A DNA stretch of 38,701 bases, taken from Bacteroidia bacterium. Its GTDB lineage: Bacteria; Bacteroidota; Bacteroidia; Bacteroidales; VadinHA17. Under the pieces are notes generated by a model. That model did not search any database and had not been told where the DNA came from. It was given only the letters and a program-made list of their open reading frames with translations. The stretch covers positions 1 through 38,701 of the forward strand of contig JAPLED010000065.1 in NCBI GenBank assembly GCA_026391475.1. Direction: 5' to 3'. Position 1 is the first letter of the stretch; every line of letters starts with the position of its first letter. The position numbers were made by a program, and so were the translations under genes. Shown here one piece after another: positions 7,586-26,797 of the stretch.

Positions 7586-9043
7586 CTAGTTAATATTTTC
7601 ATCCAAACCAATATCATATTCTTTAATCTTATTTCGAAGAGTATTTATCGATCCATAACCGAGTGCCAGCCAGGTTTGTCGCTGATTCCCCTTCTTCAAT
7701 TTCAGGACTTTCTCAATATGAGCTTTTTCAATATCCTCCCATCTTAAAGATGTTTCTTTATTTGATTCTTTGAATCTTTCAGGGATATCTTTGATTGTTA
7801 CTTCTATATCGCAGAAAATATATAGCGTTTCAATAAGATTTTCCAGTTCTCTGATATTTCCCGGCCATGAGTAATTGTGCATAAACTGCAAGACTTCAGT
7901 ATTGATATTCAGCACCTGTGGTTTTCGTAATTCTTCTCTCTTTTTTCTGAGAAAGTAATTGATCATCTCATCAAGTTCTTTACTTCCACGACTTTGCAGT
8001 GTAGGTAACTCCAGCTCAGCAATACCAAGCCGGTAAAAAAGATCCCATCTGAATTTCCCAGCATGGCAGAGTTCCGGAAGATCCTTATTTGTTGCAGCTA
8101 TTACCCTTACATCGACTTTACGGGGTTTATCCTGAAGAGGCTGGATCTCTTTTTGCTGAAGTACCCTCAATAATGTTTGCTGCAACCTTGGCGATATATC
8201 TGCAATCTCATCCAGAAATATGGTACCACCCTCAGCCTCTTCGAACAATCCTTTTGTGTCCTTATCTGCTCCTGTAAAAGCACCCTTTTTATATCCAAAT
8301 AGTTGTGCAGCTAATAATTCATCATTGAAGGCCGAACAATTGACAGTTATATAGGGTTTGTCTTTCCGGATTGAATTATTATGTATGTATTTTGCAAGGT
8401 GTTCCTTCCCCGTTCCGGTCTCACCATTAATCAATACGGTTACCTTATCTGTCTGTGCGATCTTTTCTGCCCGGTTATAAACATCTTTAAGACTTTCAGT
8501 TATTAAATAATCATCTGATAATATCTTATCTCCTGTCTTATTATCAAATAATTGCTCTTTCAGTATTGATGTAACCGGCACCGCAGATTGTTCCGTGATA
8601 ATCTCTAACAGTTCATTCTGTTTTTTCTTTGATTTTGCAGCAGGCCGCACCTGAACAAGTTTTGTTTTTAATCCCAATGAAGTGTGACAGATATACCAGG
8701 AAACCTGCATTGCAGAAGTCCCTGGTGAATAGAAAATAGTGATATCATCATTTATAAGCGAAATCAATAATGATTCAACTTTTGTTTTTATCTCCGGTAT
8801 GCTTATAACATCGTTGATATTCATGTATTTTACCTCAATATTATGTTCCGGGAAAGAATGTTTTAGCTGGTTCTCAAGGACAATCATCCTGGTATCATCC
8901 TCTTTTGCTGAGGAGAGGATTATATGTTTGTCGAAATTCCAGAACATCTTATGCATATTGTAGTTTGGACTGTTTTCAATGTCCACTTTGCCCTCTTTAT
9001 TAAAGTCATTATTAAATGACATCCAGGAAATAAGTATTTTCAT
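7586..9043 (-). CDS. RtcR-like sigma54-dependent activator with N-terminal CARF-like sensor domain
   Basis: Three parts are visible in 485 residues. Residues 1-140 form a Rossmann-like domain with a PGTSAMQ loop near 107-113 after a hydrophobic strand, followed by a QVRPAAKSKK segment. This matches the layout of the CARF domain of RtcR. Residues about 180-410 are a sigma54-activator AAA+ domain with Walker A GETGTGKE (207-214), the sigma54-contacting loop GAFTGA (254-259) and Walker B TIFLDE (274-279). The C-terminus (about 430-480) is a Fis-type helix-turn-helix. CARF domains bind cyclic oligonucleotides or RNA-end nucleotides, so this protein probably turns on sigma54 promoters in response to such a ligand. 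No rtcBA repair genes are present. The target genes are unknown; the neighbouring restriction genes are candidates. No convincing -24/-12 promoter was found. Confidence 0.85.
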   Translation of the reverse strand: MKILISWMSFNNDFNKEGKVDIENSPNYNMHKMFWNFDKHIILSSAKEDDTRMIVLENQLKHSFPEHNIEVKYMNINDVISIPEIKTKVESLLISLINDDITIFYSPGTSAMQVSWYICHTSLGLKTKLVQVRPAAKSKKKQNELLEIITEQSAVPVTSILKEQLFDNKTGDKILSDDYLITESLKDVYNRAEKIAQTDKVTVLINGETGTGKEHLAKYIHNNSIRKDKPYITVNCSAFNDELLAAQLFGYKKGAFTGADKDTKGLFEEAEGGTIFLDEIADISPRLQQTLLRVLQQKEIQPLQDKPRKVDVRVIAATNKDLPELCHAGKFRWDLFYRLGIAELELPTLQSRGSKELDEMINYFLRKKREELRKPQVLNINTEVLQFMHNYSWPGNIRELENLIETLYIFCDIEVTIKDIPERFKESNKETSLRWEDIEKAHIEKVLKLKKGNQRQTWLALGYGSINTLRNKIKEYDIGLDENIN

Positions 9044-23914: not shown

Positions 23915-25276
23915 TCAGACAGGTAATTCAATTTTCGAAAGAGCATCTTCTATCTCTGCACAGGTCAGTTCATGATCGGGAAGGTTATTCTCGAAATATT
24001 TTTCATATGCCGTAAGGTCTAAATGGCCATGGCCACTCAGGTTAAACAGAATTGTCTTTGAGATACCCTCTTTATCAGCCTGTCTGGCTTCGTCAAATAC
24101 ACCGGCAATAGCATAGGTCGATTCAGGAGCAGGAATAATTCCCTCAGAGCGGGCAAATGTTACTCCGGCTCCGAAACATTCCTTTTGCATTTTTGCCTTG
24201 ACTTCAATAAGGCCATCTTTCAGAAGTTGGCTTGGCAGAACTCCGGCACCATGATATCTCAAACCTCCTGCATGAATTTTCTCAGGAATAAAATTGTGCC
24301 CAAGCGTATACATCGGGAGAAGAGGAGTCATGCCAGCGGTGTCTCCAAAATCGTACATGAATTTTCCTCTTGAAAGCTTCGGACATGAAGATGGTTCAAT
24401 TGTAAGAAGCCTTGTTTTCTTCCCGTTGACAAGGTTTTCACGGAGAAATGGAAATGCAATTCCCGAAAAGTTAGAGCCTCCTCCGAAACAACCTATCACC
24501 ACATCGGGATAGTCACCAGCTTTTTCCATCTGTAAAATAGCTTCTTGTCCTATAATAGTCTGATGGAGAAGTACATGATTGAGGACGCTGCCAAGAGAGT
24601 ATTTTGTATACGGATCTTTCACAGCCATTTCAATGGCTTCGGAAATTGCAATTCCCAGACTTCCCGGAGAATCGGGGTTGTTTTTCAGGATATTACGACC
24701 GGCTTCTGTCAGATTACTTGGTGAAGGAATTACTTTTGCGTTGTAGGTATTCATCATCAGTTTTCTACCTGGTTTCTGATCGTAGCTGACCTTTACCATA
24801 AAGACCAAAAGTTCGAGCCCGAAATAGTTGCATGCAAAACTCATAGCACTTCCCCATTGTCCGGCACCGGTCTCGGTAGTGATCCTTTTTACCCCTTCCA
24901 TCTTATTATAGTATGCCTGAGGAATTGCAGTATTTGCCTTATGTGATCCTGAATAATTACCACCCTCATATTTATAATATATCTTGCATTTTGTACCAAG
25001 AGCTTTCTCGAGGTTATATGCTCTGTGCATCGGAGACGGTCTATAGGTCTTGTAGAGATCAAGCACCTCTTCGGGAATGTCAATATATCTTTCCTGCGAC
25101 ACTTCCTGTTTAATAAGCTCCATTGGGAAGATTGCTGACAGACTTTCGGGTCCTATCGGTTTCATTGTCCTCGGATCCAGTGGTGGCATTGGTTTATTTG
25201 GCATATCCGCCACGATATTATACCATTGCCTCGGCATTTCATCTTCACTTAATAAAATTTTAAAGATTTTTTTCAT
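23915..25276 (-). CDS. trpB2: TrpB2-type tryptophan synthase beta chain
   Basis: The 453-residue protein is a fold-type II PLP enzyme of the long TrpB2 class, with the extended N-terminus (about 1-80) that marks this group. SGSHKANTA carries the PLP lysine (Lys113), TTETGAGQWGSA follows, and the glycine loop CFGGGSNF binds the PLP phosphate. It condenses indole with serine to tryptophan. Some TrpB2 enzymes act without TrpA and may salvage indole. No trpA or other trp gene is in the window. It is preceded by a leader peptide with two Trp codons and a terminator, so expression should respond to Trp-tRNA levels. Confidence 0.92.
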   Translation of the reverse strand: MKKIFKILLSEDEMPRQWYNIVADMPNKPMPPLDPRTMKPIGPESLSAIFPMELIKQEVSQERYIDIPEEVLDLYKTYRPSPMHRAYNLEKALGTKCKIYYKYEGGNYSGSHKANTAIPQAYYNKMEGVKRITTETGAGQWGSAMSFACNYFGLELLVFMVKVSYDQKPGRKLMMNTYNAKVIPSPSNLTEAGRNILKNNPDSPGSLGIAISEAIEMAVKDPYTKYSLGSVLNHVLLHQTIIGQEAILQMEKAGDYPDVVIGCFGGGSNFSGIAFPFLRENLVNGKKTRLLTIEPSSCPKLSRGKFMYDFGDTAGMTPLLPMYTLGHNFIPEKIHAGGLRYHGAGVLPSQLLKDGLIEVKAKMQKECFGAGVTFARSEGIIPAPESTYAIAGVFDEARQADKEGISKTILFNLSGHGHLDLTAYEKYFENNLPDHELTCAEIEDALSKIELPV

Positions 25277-25295
25277 TGTATTTTAGTTTAAAGGT

Positions 25296-25332
25296 TAATA
25301 AATAAAAAAGGCACGCTGTGAACAGCGTGCCT
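25296..25332 (-). terminator. Intrinsic terminator of the trp attenuator
   Basis: An 11-bp perfect inverted repeat (AGGCACGCTGT and ACAGCGTGCCT, 25309-25332) is followed on the minus strand by TTTTTTATTTATT. It ends about 20 nt before the trpB2 start. It should stop transcription when the leader is read through quickly. Confidence 0.92.
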
Positions 25333-25431
25333 CTATAAATAAATATCTTGTAAATGTTATATAACGGCTTGTTTCACAGCATTATTTGTTGAGCTGTGCC
25401 ACGACCAGATATAAAACATTTTTGCTTTCAT
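25304..25431 (-). promoter_or_regulatory. Ribosome-mediated trp attenuator upstream of trpB2
   Basis: Four segments can be read on the RNA: segment 1 CACAGC (25393-25398), just after the Trp codons; segment 2 GCTGTGAA (25373-25380); segment 3 TTCACAGC (25315-25322), which covers the terminator loop and the start of its 3' arm; and the full terminator. Segments 1 and 2 pair over 6 bp, and segments 2 and 3 pair over 8 bp. A ribosome stalled at Trp codons 9 and 11 would cover segment 1 and free segment 2 to break the terminator. I recall a Bacteroidota RNA motif called Bacteroid-trp that this may belong to, but this was not checked. Confidence 0.85.
25357..25431 (-). CDS. trpL: Trp leader peptide (24 residues)
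   Basis: The short frame starts at ATG 25431 and ends with TAA at 25357-25359. Codons 6-11 read Phe-Tyr-Ile-Trp-Ser-Trp. Two Trp codons in 24, spaced by one, are far above chance and sit just before the first attenuator segment. The start is only 5 nt after a -7-like TATTTTTG box, so the messenger may be leaderless. Confidence 0.85.
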   Translation of the reverse strand: MKAKMFYIWSWHSSTNNAVKQAVI

Positions 25432-25436
25432 GCTGA

Positions 25437-25466
25437 CAAAAATAATCAAAAATTTAAAATATCAAT
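25437..25466 (-). promoter_or_regulatory. Bacteroidota-type promoter of the trp leader
   Basis: On the minus strand TATTTTTG (25437-25444) fits TAnnTTTG exactly. ATTG at 25463-25466 is a one-mismatch -33 element 18 nt upstream, close to the usual 19-21. Confidence 0.6.
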
Positions 25467-25546: not shown

Positions 25547-26797
25547 TCATTCATGAACCAATGCTCCAAGATGTCTTAAATCATCAAAAAACCCGGGATA
25601 CGATTTTGCAACACATTGAGAATCCCTGATATAAACTCTTCCTGTAGCGCCAAGTGAAGCAACTGCAATGGCCATTGCAATACGATGATCATCATGTGAT
25701 TCAACACGGGCACTCTGTGGCCGGCCACCGGTAACAGACATCAGGTCATCTTTAATTTCTATCCTGACATTCATCTTTCCGAACTCTTCCTTAAGGGCTG
25801 TGGCCCTGTCACTCTCCTTATATATTAACCGTGATACACCTTTGATAGTTGAAACACCATCACTATAGGATGCGAGTGCAACAAGCGGAGGGAAAAGGTC
25901 AGGTGATTCAGTAGCATCAAACTCAAATGCTTTTAAATCGGATTTGGAAATCTCAATCTGATTTTCGCTGATTTTCATTTGTGCTCCTGCTTTCCCGAGA
26001 GCATTAATTATTGCCATATCGCTTTGCATACTGTCTGTACGAAGGCCCTGAACAGTTATCTGCCCGTTAACTGCACCTGCAACCAGAAGAAATGCTCCGC
26101 CACTCCAGTCAGCCTCAACTGTATAGTTATGAGGGATATACTTTTGATTGCCGGGTATTTGAAACAGGGTATAACCTGTGTTATGAACAGTTATTCCGAA
26201 TGACTTGAGTATCTGGATAGTCATGTCGATGTACGGCTTGCTCTTCAGATTATTGACTTTTATTTCGGAGTCCCTGGCAGCAAGAGGTAATGCCATAAGC
26301 AGACCCGTTAATAACTGACTGCTTACTGATCCGTCAATTTCGCAGTATCCTCCAACTATCGGGCCCTGAATTGTAAGCGGAAGAAATCCATCCGAACTCC
26401 TGCATTTCACTCCCAGTTGATTTAGAGCCTCTTCAATCATAAACATTGGTCTCTTTTTAAGAGAATTTGCGCCAACCATCGTAATTTCTGCCGGATACAA
26501 TGCAGCGATAGGAGAGAACATGCGGATCGCAAGACCCGATTCGCCACAATTCAATTTTGGCTCTTTTAATACGCCCGAACCATTAATTTTCAATTCATCA
26601 GCCTTGGGTTCTACCCTGGCGCCCAAACCTACCGCTATGCTCATTGCAGCTAATGAATCGTCGCAATATGAGGGATTATGGATTATGCTTTGTCCGTTGG
26701 CAAGTAATGCGGCAGCGATAGACCGTTGTGTCATGCTCTTAGATGCAGGAGCTTTGATTTGACCTTTAATTCCGGACGGTTCTACATATCTTTCCAT
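25547..26797 (-). CDS. aroA: 3-phosphoshikimate 1-carboxyvinyltransferase (EPSP synthase)
   Basis: The 416-residue enzyme joins shikimate 3-phosphate and phosphoenolpyruvate in the sixth step of the shikimate pathway. The N-terminal substrate loop KAPASKSMTQR, the mid-protein GSVSSQ motif, the SPDLFPPL block and the C-terminal HDDHRIAMA motif are all present. The phosphoenolpyruvate-site loop is GESGLAIRM rather than the common GNAGTAMRP, so Thr97 and Pro101 (E. coli numbering) are replaced by Leu and Met. The gene is the last of a five-gene aromatic operon, 15 nt after aroG/CM. No terminator is seen before the trp promoter. Confidence 0.93.
   Translation of the reverse strand: MERYVEPSGIKGQIKAPASKSMTQRSIAAALLANGQSIIHNPSYCDDSLAAMSIAVGLGARVEPKADELKINGSGVLKEPKLNCGESGLAIRMFSPIAALYPAEITMVGANSLKKRPMFMIEEALNQLGVKCRSSDGFLPLTIQGPIVGGYCEIDGSVSSQLLTGLLMALPLAARDSEIKVNNLKSKPYIDMTIQILKSFGITVHNTGYTLFQIPGNQKYIPHNYTVEADWSGGAFLLVAGAVNGQITVQGLRTDSMQSDMAIINALGKAGAQMKISENQIEISKSDLKAFEFDATESPDLFPPLVALASYSDGVSTIKGVSRLIYKESDRATALKEEFGKMNVRIEIKDDLMSVTGGRPQSARVESHDDHRIAMAIAVASLGATGRVYIRDSQCVAKSYPGFFDDLRHLGALVHE

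Follow-up and report, generated by a model that had tools for sequence, protein, structure and literature searches.

In the attenuator of the Escherichia coli trp operon (Trp_leader, RF00513), stalling of the ribosome at tryptophan (Trp) codons chooses between two mutually exclusive pairings, and segment 2 of the leader RNA takes the 5' arm of the terminator. The Bacteroid-trp family (RF01692) of Bacteroidota is built from a Trp-rich leader peptide, a long leader hairpin and a terminator just downstream. A passage of PMC7298713 describes a leaderless example, the trpL of Sinorhizobium meliloti, where the mRNA begins with the ATG of a Trp leader peptide. The locus described here lies in a 38,701-nucleotide stretch of DNA (contig JAPLED010000065.1 of assembly GCA_026391475.1; the whole stretch is referred to as the window) from a little-known Bacteroidales genus, and consists of a leader region directly upstream of trpB2, a stand-alone gene for a TrpB-like enzyme. 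Sequence comparison indicates a real, conserved Trp attenuator that would be new in the gene it serves, in its sequence family and in its predicted leaderless layout. Searches of the open-licence literature turned up no account of Trp attenuation at a stand-alone trpB2 in Bacteroidota.

Leader peptide and alternative pairings upstream of trpB2

The attenuator occupies the 270-base gap between aroA and trpB2 (Table 1). An earlier note on this DNA had read there a 24-codon frame with Trp at codons 9 and 11, and this frame is confirmed, with the two codons at 25407-25405 and 25401-25399 of the minus strand. The 6-bp leader hairpin that the note placed after the Trp codons exists as a helix (CACAGC with GCTGTG, using six bases of segment 2, GCTGTGAA), but it does not stand alone, being the tip of an interrupted 23-pair hairpin (25421-25352) that also encloses the Trp codons. 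The exact 8-bp alternative pairing into the terminator loop and 3' arm holds as described, GCTGTGAA (25380-25373) being the perfect complement of TTCACAGC (25322-25315), and the terminator and its T-run are likewise present, the stem having 12 pairs rather than the 11 first given. A short leader open reading frame (ORF) with clustered, conserved Trp codons, and pairings 1:2, 2:3 and 3:4 that exclude one another, are among the marks of a ribosome-mediated Trp attenuator, and both are found here, the latter with the requirement that the switch be kinetic (see later). The 151-nt fold has a z-score of -5.05 (none of 200 shuffles was equally stable), and a terminator scan returned two sites in 601 bases compared to 0.4 expected. 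As judged from the sequences, the decisive evidence for the element is its conservation and covariation in relatives.

Table 1. The trpB2 attenuator, its predicted promoter and the flanking genes, in window coordinates.
Feature	Position	Strand	Basis
TTG 18 bases ahead of the -7 box, possible -33 element	25463..25465	-	sequence
-7 promoter box TATTTTTG (TAnnTTTG)	25437..25444	-	conserved spacing in relatives
Predicted transcription start, at the leader AUG or one base upstream	25431..25432	-	-7 box spacing
Leader peptide ORF MKAKMFYIWSWHSSTNNAVKQAVI, 24 codons then stop	25357..25431	-	W at codons 9 and 11
Segment 1, CACAGC, directly after the Trp codons, tip of leader hairpin 25421-25352	25393..25398	-	fold and covariation
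Segment 2, GCTGTGAA, partner of segment 1 or segment 3	25373..25380	-	covariation
Segment 3, TTCACAGC, within terminator loop and 3' arm	25315..25322	-	antiterminator covariation
Intrinsic terminator, 12-pair stem, 4-base loop (25334-25307), T-run 25309-25304	25304..25334	-	fold, terminator scan, covariation
trpB2 (TrpB-like pyridoxal phosphate enzyme), regulated gene	23915..25276	-	family profiles, structure matches
aroA, upstream neighbor, last in the pheA-aminotransferase-tyrA-DAHP synthase/chorismate mutase-aroA run	25547..26797	-	profile annotation

Conservation and covariation in relatives

One genome per species was scanned, giving 556 TrpB2 relatives among 580 candidate stretches, and the best 80 loci were kept: 65 at 75% identity or more (L004-L068) and 15 more distant (L069-L083). 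A W-x-W leader (TGG-NNN-TGG) is found at the matching place in 59 of the 65 closer loci, while in one (L021) the leader region is lost at a contig end, and the remaining five are described below. Counting the window, all 60 leaders have a start codon (ATG or GTG) exactly 24 bases before the first Trp codon. The distant set yielded two W-x-W matches, of which L075 was accepted; L073, with no matching hairpins, was judged by eye to be a chance match and removed before the counts. A Trp-rich ORF lies further upstream in L071.

The covariation alignment comprised 60 rows, namely the window, 58 of the 59 loci and L075, whose leader is different and whose use was limited to the pairing. L060, with a leader identical to that of L058, was omitted from it yet is included in the counts of 59 and 60 loci, and the terminators of L018 and L032 and the ends of L007 and L019 were lengthened by hand before alignment. 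The leader hairpin, antiterminator and terminator pairings all covary. Since the tested structures were derived from the window's own row, they are favored over slid versions in the proportion of cells paired, which was 88.2% for leader hairpin plus terminator and 86.8% for the antiterminator. In the former, 21 of 35 pairs changed on both sides, with a covariation score of 0.236 against 0.158 for shuffled alignments (0/500 as high) and no more than 0.097 for slid structures. In the antiterminator 6 of 10 pairs changed on both sides (shuffled mean 2.3; 1/500 as high), the score being 0.117 against 0.071 (0/500 as high), with slid structures at or below 0.053. L066 forms its antiterminator from GTTGTGTTT and AAACACAGC, and the distant relative L075 has a 10-bp 2:3 pairing of wholly different sequence, GTTGCCGCTA with TAGCGGCGAC. 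The earlier note had named a lack of conservation in relatives as grounds for giving up its reading; instead, both the W-x-W codons and the three pairings are retained.

The five closer loci without a leader fall into two situations. In L010, L011 (both about 2420-2500) and L023 (about 2449-2500), the aroA-trpB2 gap has shrunk to 81, 81 and 52 bases, respectively, and the promoter and leader are gone; by their sequences these are natural losses of both. The terminator hairpin is intact in L010, damaged in L011 and absent in L023. L057 and L062 lack the leader (upstream of 2501), and there trpB2 stands close behind a DAHP synthase/chorismate mutase gene, as though the aro operon had taken it in.

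Promoter and predicted leaderless start

The motif TAnnTTTG is found 36-38 bases before the first Trp codon in 57 of the 60 loci, at exactly 37 in 53 of them, compared to 0-3 of 60 in 200 dinucleotide shuffles. The distance from its end to the leader start codon is 4-6 bases, mostly 5, and a TTG situated 17-22 bases before the box is common, though not fixed, among the relatives. In Flavobacterium, the -7 box spans -12 to -5 according to passages of PMC6847099 and PMC9723704, and this position, together with the spacing found here, predicts a start at the AUG or one base before it, so that the leader mRNA is predicted to be leaderless, a layout that the earlier note had overlooked. A transcription start downstream of the leader, which the earlier note had considered fatal to its reading, does not seem to be indicated, the conserved box sitting just upstream of the leader. 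In L024 (2299-2350), TATTTTTG is present 41 bases from the leader start instead of the usual 5, and this locus is apparently a leadered version of the element, a natural experiment in a relative.

Among 30 loci of the genus found with model R1, a search model of the element, some of them already included in the first set, the short spacing occurs in 27. Trp leaders of the trpE type are arranged differently in the genus: of 18 loci, 16 have the box 17-21 bases from the start codon, one has it at 7 (with an uncertain start codon), and one has no box. A trpE match follows on the same contig in 16 of these loci, and the other two reach a contig end. The exact TAnnTTTG was not found in the stretch upstream of the trpE leader of the window genome itself. 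Thirty further Trp-leader loci were inspected, 25 taken from L093-L120 (other families of the order) and five being RF01692 matches (two in the genus; L087 is the same place as L114). A leader ORF is present in 29, 16 of which have the box, and in two of these the spacing is 6 bases or less (L097, 6; L100, 5). The short spacing is therefore typical of the genus, but not unique to it.

Leaderless mRNAs are few in Bacteroidota, with 5.5% given for F. psychrophilum in a source passage. Source passages also give 3.7% of 5' untranslated regions shorter than 10 bases in B. thetaiotaomicron, and leaders longer than 10 bases for 87% of predicted transcripts in F. johnsoniae. The predicted layout at trpB2 offers a tractable case of leaderless translation in this phylum.

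Proposed mechanism and alternative explanations

With the leader, the pairings, the promoter spacing and their conservation coming directly from the sequences and their comparison, it is very probable that the element is a ribosome-mediated attenuator that senses charged tRNA-Trp, has its own sigma-ABfr-type promoter and a leaderless leader, and controls trpB2 alone, the TrpB2 enzyme using indole. The start site, stalling, termination and enzyme role are what we infer in the following scheme. Transcription from the sigma-ABfr-type promoter would begin at the leader AUG or one base before, which would make the leader peptide the product of a leaderless mRNA. If Trp is ample, the ribosome would reach the stop codon and cover part of segment 2, or the 1:2 hairpin would re-form after its release, and in both cases the terminator would follow. 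When charged tRNA-Trp is short, the ribosome would stall at codon 9 or 11, covering segment 1, and segment 2, now freed, could capture the emerging terminator loop and 3' arm (segment 3), delaying the terminator so that trpB2 is transcribed. TrpB2 would then convert indole, either from outside or leaked, and a serine donor into Trp. The proposal in the earlier note of an attenuator dedicated to a trpB2 outside the trp operon is strongly supported by the conserved Trp codons, the covariation and the conserved upstream promoter box.

A folding test on the window sequence, in which an assumed ribosome footprint was masked, gave an antiterminator probability of 0.99-1.00 at RNA lengths of 119-122 with a ribosome at Trp9 or Trp11, and of 0 with no ribosome or with one at the stop codon. 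Several observations count against the attenuator as proposed. From an RNA length of 124 onward the terminator prevails whatever the state of the ribosome (in the stalled states with a probability of 0.78-0.81 at 124 and 1.0 at 126), and the switch is not seen when the full RNA is folded at equilibrium. As the terminator wins at equilibrium from 124 bases, the switch must be kinetic, and on this folding model that need is the main weakness of the scheme. Further pair types of the antiterminator are weaker, being equalled by 23 of 500 shuffles; the leader is absent in 5 of the 65 closer trpB2 loci (L010, L011, L023, L057 and L062); the -7 box is missing at its place in 3 of 60 loci (L005, L024 and L064); 6 of 58 genomes of the genus with trpB2 have no strong leader match (see later); and the window genome already has trpB1 and a trp operon, next to which the contribution of TrpB2 is unproven.

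The missing boxes also favor the alternative that survives best, in which a Trp attenuator is present but its leader is not leaderless, the transcript reading through from the aro operon or starting further upstream, with TAnnTTTG playing a minor part. Consistent with this, aroA ends 270 bases before trpB2, a simple scan saw no terminator-like site on the same strand between aroA and the leader, aroA is upstream of trpB2 in 44 of the 80 loci, and in L024 the box TATTTTTG stands 41 bases before the leader start. However, box and spacing hold in the other 57 of the 60 loci, and 18 of the 59 leader-bearing loci have no detected aroA upstream (two of these, L039 and L066, with little upstream sequence), from which the leader seems to go with trpB2. 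This alternative is considered unlikely.

Somewhat less likely again is that TrpB2 has a function other than Trp synthesis, for example serine deamination, and that its control by Trp is incidental. Passages of PMC1854888 (Merkl) mention that a serine deaminase role was once proposed, and that one archaeon kept trpB2o, the stand-alone type of the gene, after losing all other trp genes, its other selective function being "not identified yet"; the same source nevertheless reports poor serine deaminase activity for the TrpB2o of two species. Thermococcus kodakarensis is cited in a passage of PMC11085991 for the conversion of indole to Trp with two TrpB chains, and an attenuator with Trp codons would couple expression to Trp shortage, both of which speak for the synthesis of Trp. 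Finally, that the conserved hairpin is simply the aro-operon terminator, and the leader frame a by-product of base-pairing constraint, is very improbable. In its favor, part of the conservation of the peptide (AVK) is encoded by segment 2, and L010 has a terminator hairpin without a leader, but W-x-W with a start codon exactly 24 bases upstream in 60 of 60 loci, and the covariation of both the 2:3 pairing and the leader hairpin, contradict it.

The trpB2 gene and the tryptophan pathway of the genus

The trpB2 product scores above the curated cut-offs of NF009057 (705.8 bits; cut-off 366) and TIGR01415 (626.6 bits; cut-off 518.85), and its best matches among solved structures (6hul, 4qys and 6hte) are named tryptophan synthase beta chain 1 or 2. 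In minus-strand order, the window carries a his run (of which hisG and hisD were the genes scanned), a pheA/aminotransferase/tyrA/DAHP synthase-chorismate mutase/aroA run, the 270-base gap and trpB2. The window genome (G000; 2.8 Mb, 97.9% complete) has a trp run on contig C76 in which trpE, G, D, C, F, B and A were recognized from their translations, with trpB1, trpA, trpC and trpD confirmed by profile. The layout is that of the stand-alone type (TrpB2o), with trpB2 outside the trp operon and trpB1 in the trp run on another contig. A separate attenuator, with leader MRLTINNWWWQILPATAWR and a terminator hairpin, precedes trpE (L084, about 7640-7760, minus strand), and differs in sequence from that of trpB2. 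With this complete operon and its separate attenuator present, TrpB2 is an additional tryptophan synthase. The earlier note, in contrasting a lone trpB2 with a trp operon, was right about the gene itself but missed the operon elsewhere in the genome.

The survey of the genus covered 62 genomes, of which 37, all drafts, were classed as good (completeness of 90% or more, contamination of 5% or less). Model R1 finds the element in 53 of the 62 at E-values of 4e-10 or better, and three more have weaker matches only. TrpB2 scores over the family cut-off in 56 genomes and is split or partial in two more. Of the other Trp pathway genes, trpA is found in 29 and trpD in 33 (two under cut-off). Scores over cut-off were obtained for trpC in 31 and for trpB1 in 30, with trpB1 partial in two, and trpE exceeds 300 bits in 32 and the curated cut-off in none, G000 included. 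G345 has two copies of the attenuator (C12:1668-1799 and C41:2950-3081), each before a trpB2, and is possibly a mixed bin.

In 14 of the 37 good genomes, as draft assemblies, none of trpA, trpB1, trpC, trpD and trpE was found, and 13 of these keep trpB2 and the attenuator. In the 14th, G346, none of the five genes was detected and trpB2 has no leader, but a contig ends in a leader of the trpE type, so that the trp operon may be unassembled and the genome is not counted as an auxotroph. Pieces of trpE or trpD are held by G018, G021 and G343. Incompleteness alone predicts about 1.6 of 37 genomes without the genes. Of two control genes, trpB2 is absent from 2 and hisD from 4 of the 37 (Fisher p 0.0013 and 0.013 against 14 of 37; p 0.025 for 13 against the 4 without hisD). 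That 13 of the 14 pathway-less genomes keep trpB2 and its attenuator favors indole salvage, and the best reading, unproven, is that trpB2 probably makes Trp from scavenged indole. The suggestion of indole salvage or a Trp top-up in the earlier note is supported to this extent, mainly by these 13 genomes, and falls short of proof in resting on drafts. TrpB2 enzymes are cited as having a high affinity for indole and using O-phosphoserine (citations within PMC11917138), and a study among the references of PMC11085991 concerns Thermococcus TrpB1 and TrpB2 in Trp synthesis and indole salvage.

A stronger proposal, which must be regarded as tentative and rather less probable than its negation, is that the entire Trp pathway was lost in several lineages of the genus, which now depend on the indole of their neighbors, with trpB2 as their sole Trp-making enzyme under a dedicated leaderless attenuator. 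Various findings tell against pathway loss and dependence on indole. Three of the 13 genomes also lack hisD (G013, G350 and G010), and a fourth (G348) has only a hisD fragment; when the three are left out, 10 against 4 of 37 is not significant (Fisher p 0.14), and these hisD controls make the proposal slightly less probable. The five trp genes lie in one operon and can be missed together. Furthermore, when mapped on the TrpB2 tree, trp status shows no more clustering than do shuffled labels, a pattern that missing contigs could also give. The tree (48 rows plus outgroup, with G345 entered twice, bootstrap values not settled and G340 on an artefactual long branch) requires 15 changes, a number as low being reached by 205 of 500 shuffles for one group and 238 for the other, and at least 8 changes are forced by well-supported branches. 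The mapping is compatible both with repeated loss, which is plausible, and with binning gaps.

Orphan trpB2 genes have long been without a settled role, and a Trp switch that stays with trpB2, in drafts with no detected pathway too, says that its product is wanted when Trp runs short and renders the indole-salvage idea testable. If pathway loss and dependence on indole were true, orphan trpB2 genes would gain a cellular role, and an attenuator would be shown to be under selection for leaderless initiation in a phylum with few leaderless mRNAs.

Distribution and comparison with known attenuators

An Rfam scan of the window gave no match at gathering score. A weak plus-strand match to the small RNA BTncRNA_FopS (25266-25341, E 0.0039) was rejected as a small-RNA call, its 32.1 bits falling short of the gathering score (56) of that family. 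It runs antisense to the start region of trpB2 and to the terminator hairpin, which is symmetric, and R1 likewise scores 36.1 bits there on the plus strand. Among 295 genomes drawn evenly from the order, 107 have R1 matches at E 0.01, most of them weak. For the 28 loci L093-L120, the neighbor in 24 is, on our reading, trpE, trpB1 or trpB2 with strand and distance fitting control, while L107, L113 and L118 do not fit. In L117 (about 1501-1630), from another family, the R1 match precedes a hisG operon (hisG at 1696), and this region is perhaps a related His attenuator.

Comparison with Bacteroid-trp, as the earlier note had advised, leaves the trpB2 element well under threshold (21.6 bits; gathering score 49). 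No RF01692 match at gathering score was found at trpB2 in 20 relatives, and all five matches among 60 relatives are at trpB1 or trpE, two being trpE loci of the genus (G018 over and G015 under the cut-off). One of the matches, L086, has 31 bases from the -7 box to the start codon, compared to 5 in the trpB2 element. Against the E. coli family RF00513 the element scores 18.3 bits (gathering score 41), a single gene lies directly downstream, and the partner of segment 2 is the terminator loop and 3' arm, where E. coli has the 5' arm. The leaderless trpL of S. meliloti belongs to another phylum and, according to the passage cited above, precedes trpE(G). Candidate attenuators are mentioned in a passage of PMC1262725 before trpB1EDGC and trpB2A of Corynebacterium diphtheriae, where the gene named trpB2 is in an operon with trpA. 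Nearer by phylum, strong clues for leader-peptide attenuation before amino-acid operons are described in a source passage for F. psychrophilum. Also close are the trpE attenuators of the window genome and its genus, which share the Trp leader and terminator with the trpB2 element but differ from it in sequence and in the distance of 17-21 bases from box to start codon seen in 16 of 18.
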